Source: an uncultured Clostridium sp. (GTDB lineage: Bacteria > Bacillota > Clostridia > Clostridiales > Clostridiaceae). Taken from it: 42,163 nt of DNA. The notes below the pieces were generated by a model that saw nothing but the letters and a program-made list of their open reading frames with translations, ran no database searches and was not told the origin of the DNA. The DNA lies in NCBI RefSeq assembly GCF_947036855.1, contig NZ_CAMQRY010000007.1, positions 1-42,163 on the forward strand, given 5' to 3'. Both the position numbers and the translations under genes were made by a program. This document shows positions 1 through 15,728 of the stretch, piece by piece; position 1 is the first letter of the stretch, and every line of letters begins with the position of its first letter.

Positions 1-231
1 AGTTTAGTTAGTAGGATAAGTGATGTTTTAGAACTTGATATTTATTCTGTATGTGGAAATAGCTTTTATAATAATAAATACAGTTATAAAGACTATGATA
101 AGTTTTTTGAGAATATATTAGATTTTCTTAAGACTAACAGAACTGATATAAATAGTATTTTTATAGAGAAAGTAGAAGCAGAAATAAAAACTATAAATAG
201 TGTGAAAAAGGTGATTAGTAATAACAACTAA
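1..231 (+). CDS. 3' end of an unrecognised gene
   Basis: An open frame runs from the first base to a TAA at 229-231, giving 76 C-terminal residues; the start lies outside the window. The tail is rich in Asn, Asp, Lys, Ile and Phe, ends in ...VISNNN, and shows no motif I recognise. A strong terminator stem overlaps its last codons, which supports the stop as a real gene end. It lies upstream of two micro-ORFs and a serine recombinase, so it may belong to the same accessory segment. Function unknown. Confidence 0.6.
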   Translation, partial: SLVSRISDVLELDIYSVCGNSFYNNKYSYKDYDKFFENILDFLKTNRTDINSIFIEKVEAEIKTINSVKKVISNNN

Positions 232-246
232 TCATCTTTTTTTGTT
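211..246 (+). terminator. Intrinsic terminator of the first gene
   Basis: An 8-bp stem (TGATTAGT at 212-219 with ACTAATCA at 227-234) is followed by a T-rich tract from 237. The right arm contains the stop codon of the upstream gene. Confidence 0.8.
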
Positions 247-315
247 TTTATTTAATTCAGATGCCCGAAGAGTATATTATTCTGAATAACAATTAAATTA
301 TTGCGCATACTAAAT

Positions 316-343
316 TTGAAATAACTGGGATATAAGATATAAT
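316..343 (+). promoter_or_regulatory. Likely sigma-A promoter for the micro-ORF/recombinase unit
   Basis: TTGAAA at 316-321, a 16-base spacer, then a perfect TATAAT at 338-343. It sits about 45 bases upstream of the first micro-ORF and beyond the preceding terminator. Confidence 0.5.
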
Positions 344-389
344 CTGCAAGGTGGTTTTGAATAAGTTTTGTAAAGGAGGCAATTGACAT

Positions 390-482
390 ATGGAGAGCAA
401 AGAAAAGATAAGTAAAGAAGCTGTTGATGAGTTTATCAAAGAAATAGCAAAGTTATATAGTAAATACATATCTCCAAAATAG
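390..482 (+). CDS. Micro-ORF 1: 30-residue charged peptide
   Basis: ATG at 390 is preceded by a textbook AAGGAGG (373-379) with about 10 bases of spacing, and the frame ends with TAG at 480-482. The peptide is MESKEKISKEAVDEFIKEIA followed by KLYSKYISPK. It is charged and probably one amphipathic helix, with no signal peptide or membrane segment. Its core SKEAVDEFIKEIAKLYSKY aligns without gaps with SKEAIANFTKEILRLFYKY in the next small ORF, so the two are paralogues. The strong ribosome site and the preserved similarity argue that it is translated. Position just before a serine recombinase suggests an accessory role for that element; function unknown. Confidence 0.6.
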   Translation: MESKEKISKEAVDEFIKEIAKLYSKYISPK

Positions 483-494
483 AATAAAACAATC

Positions 495-539
495 CCTTAT
501 TTAATAATTATTATATTAAGTAGTAATTATTAAATAAGG
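495..539 (+). promoter_or_regulatory. Long hairpin masking the ribosome site of micro-ORF 2
   Basis: A perfect 16-bp inverted repeat (left arm 495-510, CCTTATTTAATAATTA; right arm 524-539) has a 13-base loop. The right arm includes most of the AAGGAA ribosome site (536-541) of the next small ORF. There is no T-tract after it, so it does not look like a normal intrinsic terminator. It could control translation of the second micro-ORF and the recombinase, or stabilise mRNA. Confidence 0.6.
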
Positions 540-548
540 AATATTGTT

Positions 549-659
549 ATGAGTGAAAAGAAAGTAAATGAACCTAGTAAAGAGGCAATAGCCAACTTTA
601 CTAAAGAAATTTTAAGACTTTTTTATAAATACAAGTCAATTAAACAAAATGAAGAATGA
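549..659 (+). CDS. Micro-ORF 2: 36-residue paralogue of micro-ORF 1
   Basis: ATG at 549 follows AAGGAA (536-541); the frame ends with TGA at 657-659. The peptide begins MSEKKVNEPSKEAIANFTKE and ends IKQNEE. The shared pattern SKEA-x-x-x-F-x-KEI-x-(K/R)-L with a terminal KY is seen in both micro-ORFs. It ends 9 bases before the recombinase start, so all three are probably co-transcribed and may be translationally coupled. Roles to consider are recombination accessory factor or regulatory peptide; nothing in the sequence decides between them. Confidence 0.55.
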   Translation: MSEKKVNEPSKEAIANFTKEILRLFYKYKSIKQNEE

Positions 660-668
660 TGTGAGTAG

Positions 669-2006
669 GTGTATAAGGTGAAAAAGGTTGCTATTTATTT
701 AAGAAAAAGTAGAGGAACACTAGAAGATTTACAAAAGCATGAAGAACAATTAATATCACTATGCGAAGGTTATGACTACACATATGATATATACAGAGAG
801 ATTGCAAGTTCGGATACAATGGAAAGGGCAGAACTTACAAGGCTTTTAGAGAATATAAAGGATTATAGTGGTATTGTAATTACAGCAATTGATAGACTTT
901 CTAGAAATGAGTATCATCAAGCCTTGATTACTCAAATGTTAAAAGAAAATAATATTGAGATTATAACTCCAAGTAGGAATTATAATTTTTCAAATGAAAC
1001 AGATATTATTACAAGTGATTTTGAAAAACTTCTTGCTAGGCAGGAGTTTAGAATTATAAAAAATCGTCTAAGGGTTGGTAAGTTACATAGCTTTAATCAA
1101 GGTAATTGTATAACAACACCACCTTTTCCGTATAAGTATAACTCTAAAACTAAGAGTTTAGATATAGAGGAGGAGAGTTATGAAAAGTATAGATATATTG
1201 TGAAACTTGCAGTAGAAGGAAATTCACCAGCTTATATAGGTGAGAAAGTTGGTATGAAGACTTTAAGGGTAAGGAGAATGCTTTGTAATAAGGTTCATAG
1301 AGGATATGTAAGATATGCTGATGAATATGTTAAAGGGAAACATAAGCCTGTAATAACAGAGGAAGAGTTTCAGATTATTGAAAAATATAAATATGGAAGG
1401 TTATGTGGAAGACGAAAAAGAAGTAAGCATCTTTTTAGCTTATCAGGTATTGTAAAATGTCATACTTGTGGCTACACAAGAGGTGTTAAAGTTAGAACTG
1501 ATAGAAAAATAGCAGAATCTATTCCAAAATGTCAGTATTGTGGTGATGGTGGTTTTGTAACAACAGGTGTTCATAAAGAAATAAAGGTAAGATTACAGAA
1601 GTATATAGAGAAAATAGAAGTTGGATTAAGTAGCTTTGATTTTGTTTTGAAGAAAGATGAGTTAGAACGGGATTTAAAAGTAAATAATAATGAAATAGTA
1701 CGGTTTGAAAAACAATTAGAAAAACTTAAAGAGATGATATTAAATGATATTATATCTATCGAAGATGGGAAAAAGAAAGATAAAGAAATAAAAGCTATAA
1801 TTGAGCGTAAAGTTGAATATCAAAAAGAATTAGAAACTGATATAAGAAGTTTGGGAAATATAAAAGTTGATAAGGTTTCGCTTGGGAAAACTTTAGAAAT
1901 TTTAGAGTTTAATATAACATCTGAAGAGTTGAATGGATTATATAGAACAATCATAAATAAAATTACTGTTAAAGATAAAGCAGTAATTGATATTGAATGG
2001 AAGTAG
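669..2006 (+). CDS. Large serine recombinase (site-specific integrase/resolvase family)
   Basis: This 445-residue protein has the serine recombinase layout. The N-terminal resolvase domain (about 1-140) has the catalytic Ser in YLRKSRG (S14) and conserved Arg in ITAIDRLSRN. A recombinase domain follows (about 145-240), then a zinc ribbon with CHTCG and CQYCG pairs (about 260-290), and a coiled-coil-rich C-terminus (about 330-400). Large serine integrases are often 450-600 residues, so this is compact. A stop codon lies immediately upstream in frame, so the start is GTG at 669 or GTG at 678; neither has a strong ribosome site. It probably moves or once moved the DNA around it by recombination between short att sites. 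No tyrosine integrase, excisionase or phage structural gene is in view. Confidence 0.9.
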   Translation: MYKVKKVAIYLRKSRGTLEDLQKHEEQLISLCEGYDYTYDIYREIASSDTMERAELTRLLENIKDYSGIVITAIDRLSRNEYHQALITQMLKENNIEIITPSRNYNFSNETDIITSDFEKLLARQEFRIIKNRLRVGKLHSFNQGNCITTPPFPYKYNSKTKSLDIEEESYEKYRYIVKLAVEGNSPAYIGEKVGMKTLRVRRMLCNKVHRGYVRYADEYVKGKHKPVITEEEFQIIEKYKYGRLCGRRKRSKHLFSLSGIVKCHTCGYTRGVKVRTDRKIAESIPKCQYCGDGGFVTTGVHKEIKVRLQKYIEKIEVGLSSFDFVLKKDELERDLKVNNNEIVRFEKQLEKLKEMILNDIISIEDGKKKDKEIKAIIERKVEYQKELETDIRSLGNIKVDKVSLGKTLEILEFNITSEELNGLYRTIINKITVKDKAVIDIEWK

Positions 2007-2032
2007 GCAAAAGAGCTTACTTCTATTTTTTT
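2000..2032 (+). terminator. Terminator of the recombinase
   Basis: A 9-bp stem (GAAGTAGGC at 2000-2008 with GCTTACTTC at 2015-2023, one G-T pair) and a loop of six are followed by TATTTTTTT. The left arm overlaps the stop codon. Confidence 0.8.
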
Positions 2033-2141
2033 GAGGTATTTTTAAAAAACATTAAGTTTATAATTTTTAGATAATAAAAAGGATTATAGATAGTAGTAAA
2101 GAATATAAATAGTAGTAAACATAGGCAAATGGGGGAGTTAT

Positions 2142-2774
2142 ATGATTGATGAAATGATTTTAGAAACAGAACGAGATAGGAAATATATTATGAATAGAGT
2201 TAAGAATATTGCAGCAGGATATGCAACTTTAGAAACAAGTGAGGGAATAACTCAAGGTGGGGATACAATAACATCAAAAATATCAGATGTTGGGAAAGTG
2301 CATTTAATAAAAACTAAGATTCCAAATGAATTTGGAAAGTTAGTTGGTGCTTATACAATACTTTTGCAGGATAAACTTGATAGAGTAGCTTTAGAAAAAT
2401 TAGAGTTATATGGTGAAGATGTTAAAGAAAAGTATTTAAAAGAAAAAAGTCTAAGGGTTTTAGATAAGATAGAGATTAGCTCTACAAATTTTGAGTATTC
2501 AAATAAAGCTAGTACACTAGGCTTTATTTTAGTTATAATATCATTTTTTATACCAACATCTATTAATAAAACTCAGGTAAGTTTTAAGATTATATATATT
2601 GTAATAGCATTTATTATATATAAAATCGTAAAGATGGATGAAGAAGGAAATGCAAATCAAAGTATTAGAGATTATTTTGATAAGTTAGAAAGCGCACTTG
2701 AAAGATATACTGAAGATTATTGCTATACATATGAAAAAAATATGATGAGAATATTAGAACGTATAGAAAATTAG
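2142..2774 (+). CDS. Unknown protein with two membrane helices
   Basis: This 210-residue protein has a strong GGGGGAG ribosome site just before ATG 2142. Residues 1-120 are hydrophilic and mixed helix/strand; about 122-142 and 147-163 are two hydrophobic segments with a very short turn; about 165-210 is a charged, probably coiled tail (ending MMRILERIEN). The hairpin pair of helices would place both ends on the same side, probably cytoplasmic. No conserved enzymatic motif is visible. It lies alone between the recombinase terminator and the EamA promoter and may be cargo of the recombinase-associated segment. No function assigned. Confidence 0.7.
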   Translation: MIDEMILETERDRKYIMNRVKNIAAGYATLETSEGITQGGDTITSKISDVGKVHLIKTKIPNEFGKLVGAYTILLQDKLDRVALEKLELYGEDVKEKYLKEKSLRVLDKIEISSTNFEYSNKASTLGFILVIISFFIPTSINKTQVSFKIIYIVIAFIIYKIVKMDEEGNANQSIRDYFDKLESALERYTEDYCYTYEKNMMRILERIEN

Positions 2775-2964
2775 AATATGAAATATATATTTTAAAAGGT
2801 TAATAGCATATTCTATATGTAAAAAAATGAGCGTTTATATATAAAATTGTATTTATATATGGTATCAAACAATGAAATTTTTATAAGGTATTTTACCAAT
2901 TAAATAAAAATAAACCTAAATAGTTATTTAATATATATATTTAAAAAATATAGTGAAAAAAGTA

Positions 2965-2993
2965 TTGTTTTTACTTAAATATACTAATATAAT
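2965..2993 (+). promoter_or_regulatory. Promoter of the EamA transporter
   Basis: TTGTTT at 2965-2970, a 17-base spacer and a perfect TATAAT at 2988-2993, 44 bases upstream of the transporter start. Confidence 0.6.
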
Positions 2994-3037
2994 CTAGTCG
3001 TTTAAGAAAAAAATAAATAAAGTGAGGGTCAAAACAA

Positions 3038-3925
3038 ATGAAGAATAGTCGAACTAAAGGTATTATACTTATATTATTTATGGCACTTAGTTTCTCTATA
3101 ACGGGAGCATTTATAAAAGGTGTACATGGAGTACCAGAGCAAGAAGAAGTTTTTTATAGAAACTTAGTTATTTTTGCAACATCAATTATTATGATCCTTA
3201 AGAGTAAAGCACCAGCTTTCGGAAATAAGGGAAATAGACTCGCACTTATCGGTAGAGGTGCTTTTGGGACACTTGGAGCATTCGCAAGTTATTATGCAAT
3301 AACACATATGATATTACCAAATGCGGTTATCATAAGTAATCTTTGTCCATTCTTTATAATAATATTCTCAGCAATATTCCTTAAAGAAAAATTAAAATCA
3401 GTACAAGTTATAGCAGTTTTAATAGCACTTAGTGGAATGATATTTATTGTTAATCCAGGTGGAAAACTTGCTCTTATACCAGCAGGAGTAGCACTTCTTG
3501 GAGCTATCTTTAATGGGATTTCATATGTACTTGTTAGACATCTTGGGCATAAAGAAAAACCAGAAACAATTATACTTGTTATGGCAATAACATCACTATT
3601 CTTCACAGTACCAAGTATGGTGGCTCACTATGTACCACTATCTACAAAAGATTTATTATTACTACTTGGAGCTGGAGTAGCTTACTCAGTTGCAGAAGTT
3701 TTAGGAGTCCTTGCATATAAATGTGCACCTGCAAGAGAAATATCAGTATTCAGTTACTCTGATGCAATATTCTCAGCTGGATTATCATTCTTATTATTTG
3801 GACAACTTCCACATCATATTCAATACATTGGATATGTATTAATAATAATCGGAGCAATTATATTATATGGATTTAATACTAAAAAACAGATACCAGTAGA
3901 AGATAATGAAGTGGTAATAAATTAA
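3038..3925 (+). CDS. EamA/DMT-family transporter
   Basis: This 295-residue protein has ten predicted transmembrane segments made of two repeated EamA halves (about 8-137 and 150-280), typical of the drug/metabolite transporter superfamily. Conserved-looking features are the early GAFIKGVHGVPEQEEVFYRN stretch and the first-half AILIFKEKL-type end (here IFLKEKLKSVQ). The family exports or imports small metabolites such as amino acids or nucleosides; the substrate cannot be read from sequence. The start is ATG 3038 behind a GTGAGGG ribosome site. It is a single-gene unit between its own promoter and a strong bidirectional terminator. Confidence 0.88.
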   Translation: MKNSRTKGIILILFMALSFSITGAFIKGVHGVPEQEEVFYRNLVIFATSIIMILKSKAPAFGNKGNRLALIGRGAFGTLGAFASYYAITHMILPNAVIISNLCPFFIIIFSAIFLKEKLKSVQVIAVLIALSGMIFIVNPGGKLALIPAGVALLGAIFNGISYVLVRHLGHKEKPETIILVMAITSLFFTVPSMVAHYVPLSTKDLLLLLGAGVAYSVAEVLGVLAYKCAPAREISVFSYSDAIFSAGLSFLLFGQLPHHIQYIGYVLIIIGAIILYGFNTKKQIPVEDNEVVIN

Positions 3926-13732: not shown

Positions 13733-13756
13733 AAGCACAAATCAAATACACAAAAT

Positions 13757-14003
13757 CAGTGATTAGGGAAGTAGTTTAAAAGAGGTCTTAAAGCGAGTAG
13801 GAGTAGAGTGGAAGTCCTAAGGAATATTTTAAATGAAATAGAAACCTATGAGATGCTATAAGCTTATATGATATAAGTTTTTAAATAGCCGTATATATGC
13901 GTTAATTATTAAAGTGGATGTTACATCAATTAGAGTGGTACCGCGGATTATATTCGTCTCTTATTTATTTTTTAAGTAAAATAAAATAAGAAGGCGTTTT
14001 TTT
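13757..14003 (+). ncRNA. T-box riboswitch (arginine specific) controlling argS
   Basis: The T-box sequence AGAGTGGTACCGCGG lies at 13932-13946, including the UGGU bulge that pairs with the tRNA acceptor end. The region 13757-13860 carries stem I features (GGGAAGTAGT, AGCGAGT). The likely specifier is AGA (13840-13842) in the context GAAAT-AGA-AACC, an Arg codon read by tRNA-Arg(UCU). The competing terminator has CGTC plus TCTTATTT (from 13955) pairing with AAATAAGA plus GGCG (to 13996), then seven T. Uncharged tRNA-Arg would promote readthrough into argS. Confidence 0.92.
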
Positions 14004-14036: not shown

Positions 14037-15728
14037 ATGAATTATAAAGAATTTGTAGCAAAAAGACTAAAAGAGTTAGTAGGTTTAGAGTTAGATAAAA
14101 TAGAGGGATTAGTAGAAGTCCCACCAAAAAGTGATATGGGTGATTTTGCATTCCCATGCTTCCAATTATCAAAGGTTATGAGAAAAGCTCCTAATATGAT
14201 AGCAGCAGATCTTGCTACTGAGATAAATAAAGAAGGATTTGAAAAAGTTGAAGCTTTAGGACCATATATAAACTTCTTCTTAGATAAAACATCATTTAAT
14301 AAAACAATAATAGAAAAAGTTTTAAATGAAGAGGATCAATATGGTTCAGGTACAGAAGGAGCAGGTAAGAAATATATCGTTGAGTATTCATCTCCTAATA
14401 TAGCAAAGCCATTCCATGTAGGACATTTATTTACTACTGCAATTGGTAATTCATTATATAAAACTTTAAAATTTGATGGATATGACCCAACAAGAATAAA
14501 TCACCTTGGTGACTGGGGAACTCAGTTTGGTAAGCTTATAGTAGCTTATAAAATGTGGGGAGATGAAGAAGCTTTAGAGAAAGATCCAATAAGTGAGCTT
14601 TTAAGAATATATGTTAAATTCTATTATGAAGCAAAAGAACATCCAGAACTTGATGATGAAGGAAGAAGATACTTCAAAAGACTTGAAGATGGATATGAAG
14701 AAGAAGTTGCTTTATGGAATAGATTTAAAGATTTATCATTAAAAGAATTTAATAAAATATATGAAATTTTAAATGTTGATTTTGATTCATGGGCAGGAGA
14801 AAGTTTCTATAATGATAAACTTGAAGATGTATCTAAGTTCCTAGAAGAAAGAGGAATATTAGAAGAGAGTAATGGTGCTAAAGTTGTAATGCTTGAGGAT
14901 TATAATATGCCTCCATGTCTTGTTGTAAAATCTGATGGAGCTTCAATTTATGCTACAAGAGATTTAGCAGCAGCTAGATATAGAAAAGAACATTATGACT
15001 TTGATAAATGTATATATGTAGTTGGTAAAGATCAAATACTTCACTTTAAGCAAGTATTTAAAACTTTAGAACTTGCAGGAGAAGAATGGGCTAAGGATTG
15101 TGTTCATATTCCATTTGGAGTTGTTAAGTTTGCTGATAAAAAACTTTCAACAAGAAAAGGTGATGTAGTTCTTTTAGAAGAATTATTAAATAATGCTATT
15201 GAGAATGCTAAAGAACTTATTGAAGAAAAAAATCCTACTTTAGCAAATAAAGAAGACGTAGCTAAGAAAATAGGTATAGGTGCTATAGTATTCACATATC
15301 TTAAAAACTCAAGAGAGAAGGATATAACTTTCAATTGGAAAGAGATGTTAAGCTTTGATGGAGAAACAGCTCCATATGTTCAATATGCTTATGCAAGAGC
15401 TAAAAGTATAGTAAGAAGAGCAGGAGAAGTTTCAGTAGAAGCTGATTTTACAAAGCTTACAACTAAAGAAGAATTTGAACTTTGTAAGACATTAGAAGGA
15501 TTCCATAAAGCAGTACTTGGTGCAATAGATAAACTTGAACCATCAATTATTACTCGATATTCAATTGATGTAGCTAAAGCTTTTAACAAGTTCTATAATG
15601 CACATAGTGTATTAAATGTTGAAGATGAATCATTAAAAGCTGCAAGACTTGCTTTAATTAAAGCAGCAGCACAAGTTATTAAAAATTCACTTTCATTAAT
15701 AGCAGTAGATGTTGTTGAAGAAATGTAA
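14037..15728 (+). CDS. argS: Arginyl-tRNA synthetase
   Basis: ArgRS charges tRNA-Arg with arginine using ATP. The 563-residue length fits class Ia ArgRS. An N-terminal Arg-specific domain (about 1-100) is followed by the class I catalytic core with [13 protein letters not shown] (HIGH-type HVGH at 127-130), [27 protein letters not shown], and [10 protein letters not shown] in place of KMSKS. The C-terminal DALR anticodon-binding domain includes [12 protein letters not shown] and [16 protein letters not shown] precedes ATG 14037. Expression is controlled by the T-box leader, and a bidirectional terminator follows. Confidence 0.98.

Follow-up and report, generated by a model that had tools for sequence, protein, structure and literature searches.

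A conserved hairpin block and a family of tiny proteins associated with large serine recombinase genes in Clostridium

Background

Translational attenuators of the ermC-like kind consist of a short leader ORF followed by a hairpin that covers the Shine-Dalgarno sequence (SD) of the next gene. For the majority of large serine recombinases, a class of enzymes also employed in genome engineering, neither the directionality factor nor the means of dose control is known. Triplets of serine integrase genes, with three adjacent genes in one orientation, are known from streptococcal ICEs according to the relevant passages of PMC4701971. In the skin element of C. difficile, the recombinase CD1231 is accompanied by the RDF CD1234, a protein of 72 aa with its own sigma-E promoter (PMC5025042).

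Here, a locus of an uncultured Clostridium sp. is set beside these systems. The window that was analysed is an entire contig (C7) of 42,163 bases, base 1 being the contig end, and belongs to a 2.6-Mb genome assembled in 217 contigs. The integration module found there is of a known kind; the novelty lies in a family of small proteins and in a hairpin block that is strongly conserved but uncertain in its meaning.

Organization of the locus

From the left end of the contig, the locus is composed of a regulator fragment, a terminator, a promoter-like site, a first small ORF (ORF1), a hairpin, a second small ORF (ORF2) and a recombinase gene (SR3), all on the forward strand, and is contiguous in the assembly from ORF1 through SR3. 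The regulator is of the XRE/HTH type and is represented by its C-terminal 76 codons only (1-230), being cut by the contig end, at which the left end of the element is lost as well; over 72 aa it is 43% identical to the regulator that heads a triple-recombinase module (L033:1123-1512) in another genome of the genus, G006. Its gene is followed by an intrinsic terminator (204-242; fold z = -5.9), which is the sole terminator-like site in 1-3100, and by a small dyad, ATTCAGA-N19-TCTGAAT (255-287), which from its sequence may be an operator. A sigma-70-type promoter, TTGAAA-16-TATAAT (316-343), matches 11/12 consensus positions and is the best of 21 in the region, a total count that is at chance level. 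The SD of ORF1 (AAAGGAGG, 372-379) is strong and unmasked, with an opening cost of 1.5 kcal/mol that was equalled or exceeded in 107/150 shuffles.

SR3 (678-2006) encodes a large serine recombinase of 442 aa if translation starts at GTG 678, or 445 aa if it starts at GTG 669. The former is most likely the start, because both the SD (AGTAGGTG, 664-671) and the distance from it to the start recur in G006, where the start codon is an ATG and the SD overlaps the ORF2 stop. The product has an N-terminal resolvase domain (PF00239, 3.4e-15) whose YLRKSR motif, with the catalytic serine, is invariant across ten homologues, a zinc ribbon with CxxC pairs at 264/267 and 288/291, and a coiled coil formed by helices 322-355 and 361-393 in the AF2 model (pLDDT 79). 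It matches the phrog_95 integrase over residues 3-444 (6.4e-52) and YokA (PDB 9dxh) over 433 residues (E 3e-12), and its score for the Recombinase domain PF07508 is 18.9 bits, the Pfam cut-off being 21.1. Among the six further genomes of the genus, only G006 contains a full-length relative with 74% identity (dN 0.17, dS 0.90); none as close was found in the rest of the 207 family genomes searched. Located 3' of SR3, a 210-aa membrane-protein-like ORF (2142-2774) is unmatched in all six further genomes of the genus and may be cargo of the element. An Rfam search gave no match for the hairpin locus, the sole match in the window being a T-box leader (13750-13964, 101 bits) immediately 5' of an arginyl-tRNA-synthetase-like gene (14037-15728).

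ORF1 and ORF2 define a small-protein family

ORF1 (390-482) encodes 30 aa, MESKEKISKEAVDEFIKEIAKLYSKYISPK, and ends with a TAG located 5 nt 5' of the lower helix of the hairpin; ORF2 (549-659) encodes 36 aa, MSEKKVNEPSKEAIANFTKEILRLFYKYKSIKQNEE, and has a 39-aa orthologue in G006. The original prediction held that these two tiny ORFs are related, which proved correct, as did their coordinates: BLASTP aligns them with 13/23 identities, their Smith-Waterman score of 60 was not reached in any of 20,000 shuffles (highest, 55), and they form the top pair of 55 among the SD-led sORFs of the window, with a runner-up at 30. That prediction had also been made to depend on purifying selection of the peptides, and ORF2 is under such selection as a protein when compared to its G006 orthologue (dN 0.20, dS 0.85; pN 0.18, pS 0.51, Fisher p = 0.019 from one sequence pair).

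A family profile was built from eight small ORFs, picked partly for their position before recombinases, and was searched in 202 genomes. It scores ORF2 at 8.0e-15 and ORF1 at 2.1e-8, both of which are inside the profile, so that these values are high by construction. The best independent match in the whole-genome search (E = 1.4e-5) is a 54-aa ORF of genome G497 (...ITITCNKPSKEALKNLADGILYLYSKN...), which has a PSKEA...LYSK pattern in common with ORF1 and ORF2; its stop codon falls within the beginning of a truncated recombinase gene that resembles SR3, MDKIAIYLRKSKGEIEDLEKHKEQL. Nine family members occur in the fetched loci, all of them preceding a serine recombinase gene, with ORF2 intervening in the case of ORF1, and the next-ranked matches are not so placed; these loci were mostly fetched via recombinases, and the G497 match alone is an independent test of the association.

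The predicted structure of the G497 protein comprises two strands and a helix (pLDDT 78), of which ORF1 and ORF2 retain the helical part only. Searches of Pfam, NCBIfam and PHROGs with the peptides and their relatives returned no family, and a PDB fold search with the small-protein model gave no match. ORF1 and ORF2 belong to one and the same unnamed family, whose tiny and mainly helical members are found alongside large serine recombinases, and the occurrence of this family directly 5' of such genes provides a list of candidate partners.

At the G497 locus (L308:1471-1749) the recombinase breaks off some 37 codons in, and the locus resembles the terminus of an element that has been lost. Short ORFs of several unrelated kinds were also seen 5' of clostridial serine recombinases (L141-L240), namely SHOCT-like ORFs, a 'IDIEIKKVGRKIY' type and helices of 26-42 aa of the 'IIEVISEIILKY' type.

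A hairpin masks the ribosome site of ORF2

The two small ORFs are separated by a palindromic block (481-551) made of a flank (481-487), a lower helix of 6 bp (488-493/543-548) that terminates at the ORF2 start codon, a main stem (495-514/520-539) and a loop (515-519). A perfect 16-bp stem burying the AAGGA of ORF2 had been predicted and is borne out: the 16 perfect pairs (495-510/524-539) extend to 20 bp, and four of the five bases of the SD (536-540) are in the stem, with A540 in an internal loop. The hairpin folds at -23.5 kcal/mol (z = -6.95), and opening the SD of ORF2 costs about 10.6 kcal/mol versus 0.7-6.9 for 19 other genes of the window, a cost that none of 250 shuffles matched. Since eight other perfect inverted repeats of at least 14 bp occur in the window, stem length alone is not rare here; its position over a ribosome site is. 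The SD of ORF1 is open and that of ORF2 closed, and likewise in G006 the SD of the ORF at the module head is open and that of ORF2 closed.

When the block is compared to that of G006, 66 of the 68 nt at 481-548 are identical (97%), as opposed to 66% of SR3 third codon positions (binomial P 2.6e-10) and to no more than 63 identities in the best 68-nt stretch of SR3, which indicates that the block is strongly constrained, loop and flanks included. The A-to-G change at 532 leaves a U-G in place of a U-A pair, and the A-to-T change at 543 breaks an A-U pair of the lower helix; with the block known from two genomes, these two changes are all by which its pairing can be judged. All 16 unpaired positions are kept (P 0.001 against third positions, 0.017 against overall SR3 identity), which is more than masking needs and leaves room for a protein-binding role. 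Left of 481, the window and G006 loci are unrelated.

No other full copy of the block was detected in 202 genomes of the family. A loose-pattern search of one hairpin arm across the class gave matches at about control level, and viral contigs, phages and plasmids contained no close SR3, peptide or hairpin; four viral 18-mer matches formed no such hairpin on folding. The possibility that the stem is an intrinsic terminator was rejected, as it has no T run and is absent from the terminator scan of 1-3100, and so was that of a mobile repeat, with one full copy of the block per genome.

Module architecture in relatives

In G006, three adjacent recombinase genes are found in the order regulator, 41-44-aa ORF, SR1 (579 aa), SR2 (530 aa), hairpin, 39-aa ORF2 and SR3. 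A further genome of the genus, G001, also has three, the first of which is broken, in the order regulator, 43-aa ORF, SR1, SR2, 58-aa ORF and a different third recombinase; the small ORF preceding the latter is unrelated in sequence to ORF2. The window has a single recombinase gene, and by parsimony from these two relatives its locus appears to be an integration module that lost SR1 and SR2. The ancestral order would have been regulator, small ORF A, recombinase 1, recombinase 2, hairpin, small ORF B and recombinase 3, as retained in G006.

This comparison upholds one part of the original prediction of a built unit composed of promoter, peptide 1, hairpin, peptide 2 and recombinase: the stem is conserved and masks the second SD. 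The order is not conserved, however, as in G006 the hairpin, peptide 2 and recombinase follow SR2 and peptide 1 is absent, a different ORF of 41-44 aa heading the module. The loss of both peptides and stem from homologous loci, which had been put forward as speaking against the unit, is not what G006 displays: it keeps the stem and ORF2 and has no ORF1. The local duplication of a micro-gene, also proposed, is not required, and the two small ORFs are better explained by one located at the module head and one before the third recombinase.

A second, decayed copy of SR3 occurs in G006 (L033:11522-12821); it is about 90-94% identical in parts, has no hairpin block and is preceded by a fragment that resembles the C-terminal part of the regulator. 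A feature shared by the window and G006 is that ORF1 in the former and SR2 in the latter both end with TAG, after which the same frame is open (NKTIPYLIIIILSSNY; window 480-533, L033:4996-5091) until a stop codon within the 3' arm is reached, 2 nt 5' of the masked SD; a shared frame is expected by chance in about 1 in 9 cases. A ribosome reading through this TAG would open the stem.

Masking at other small ORFs

In G001, the SD of the ORF at the module head is open and that of the ORF before the third recombinase is closed (12.3 kcal/mol; 2/250 shuffles as high) by a stem in which UUCCUCC is paired with GGGGGAA, and which is unrelated to that of the window. Masking by an unrelated stem is suggestive support, as one additional case read from sequence, for gating before the third recombinase. 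A survey of 49 small ORFs, however, did not indicate that SD masking is general before recombinases, with two clear cases (L193 and L226) and 6 nominal ones versus 3.2 expected. In L226 and L193 (both on the reverse strand), SHOCT-like small ORFs before recombinases have strong SD-burying stems (e.g. ACCTCCTGCC/GGCAGGAGGT in L226); L219 is closely related to L193 but has not retained the masking.

A possible gate on recombinase expression

We consider it an even call that the locus is what remains of a mobile element's integration module, with ORF2 coupled in translation to SR3 and gated by the hairpin, thereby keeping the recombinase dose low. Under such a scheme, transcription would begin near 350 and ORF1 would be freely translated, while ORF2, its ribosome site being covered, would be made rarely unless the stem is opened. 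SR3 translation would follow that of ORF2 by coupling, resulting in a low dose of recombinase. Coupling is likely, since in the window as in G006 the SD of SR3 lies either across the ORF2 stop or shortly 3' of it; reading frames of small ORF and recombinase overlap in G497 and L109. A ribosome terminating on ORF1 would unfold the lower helix and come to rest against the main stem, and may aid the opening of the latter. The calculated opening cost falls from 10.7 to 6.6 and then to 1.7 kcal/mol as ribosome occupancy shifts from 487 to 495 and 498, but a ribosome at the ORF1 stop presumably reaches only about 492-495, short of the 498 needed. A trans-acting binder of the conserved sequence would be an equally possible opener, and we prefer to regard ORF1 translation or a trans-acting factor as a putative modulator of the gate. 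Counted against gating are the restriction of the block to two genomes, a loop and flanks as conserved as the stem, the absence of ORF1 from G006 and the fact that masking is not general. The near-invariant block offers a clean case for studying translational gating of a recombinase.

In a different explanation, the block is primarily a DNA site bound by the recombinase, its small partner or the regulator, which would provide autoregulation or mark a site of recombination, and the hairpin in the RNA is an incidental consequence of the dyad symmetry. The 16 unpaired positions are kept like the arms, the conserved block is centred near the dyad axis at 517, the homology between window and G006 ends at its left edge, and a dyad of 45-61 bp has the size of serine integrase attP sites. 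Both copies are intact, however, when an integrated element should have hybrid attL/attR sites, each genome has a single full copy, and the palindrome takes in exactly the SD of ORF2, the corresponding SD of G001 being masked by a sequence of unrelated origin; we hold a DNA site to be possible but rather unlikely. More speculative still is a combination of both roles, in which ORF1 and ORF2 would be the first known of a class of recombinase partners, encoded in cis as activity or directionality factors and made in fixed ratio with the enzyme by coupling, and the palindrome would act both as RNA gate and as binding site for partner or recombinase in an autoregulatory loop.

Processing or stability of the RNA would also account for a stable stem between cistrons of one transcript in both genomes, the hairpin then setting upstream versus downstream mRNA amounts. 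Such a mechanism is documented in clostridia, the part of PMC4423207 consulted describing intergenic stem-loops that set relative mRNA amounts in Clostridium cellulolyticum, but at the 3' ends of selected genes, whereas here the stem lies over the SD of the next ORF; as it also leaves the sequence-level conservation of the loop unexplained, we think this improbable. A classical attenuator leader peptide of the erm type, at which a stalled ribosome refolds the hairpin, would present a similar picture of a short, strongly SD-led ORF and a hairpin covering the following SD. The geometry led us to reject it as very improbable: the ORF1 stop is at 480-482 and the first pair at 488, so that leader ORF and hairpin do not overlap and a ribosome stalled inside ORF1 does not touch the hairpin; relatives of ORF1 moreover occur far from any such hairpin, and ORF1 is absent in G006. 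Finally, the close match of ORF1 and ORF2 (13/23) would be expected of a local duplication of one micro-gene devoid of regulatory meaning, a view that is hardly credible given that the G006 and G001 modules already hold two different small ORFs and that the conservation of the block far exceeds what would be expected of neutral DNA.

Comparison with known systems

The gated arrangement that we favour differs from ermC-like attenuators in that the hairpin is entirely 3' of ORF1, so that stalling inside ORF1 cannot open it. The triple arrangement of G006 and G001 is the same as that of the ICE triplets, the window keeping the third gene only; small ORFs are not mentioned in the searched passages on these triplets (PMC4701971), and the elements concerned here are not delineated. 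SR3 matches YokA, the SPbeta integrase SprA, for which a small partner is known, the RDF SprB (YotN; PDB 9dxh and 9dxd); family searches gave no link between SprB and ORF1 or ORF2, the likeness being by analogy only. With CD1231 and CD1234 (PMC5025042), the locus shares the association of a large serine recombinase and a small element-encoded protein, which in that case controls CD1231. Unlike CD1234, ORF1 and ORF2 are of 30-36 aa, lie upstream of the recombinase and are probably coupled to it, and are tied to SR3 by genetic linkage alone. Their likeness to directionality factors is one of analogy, not of membership.
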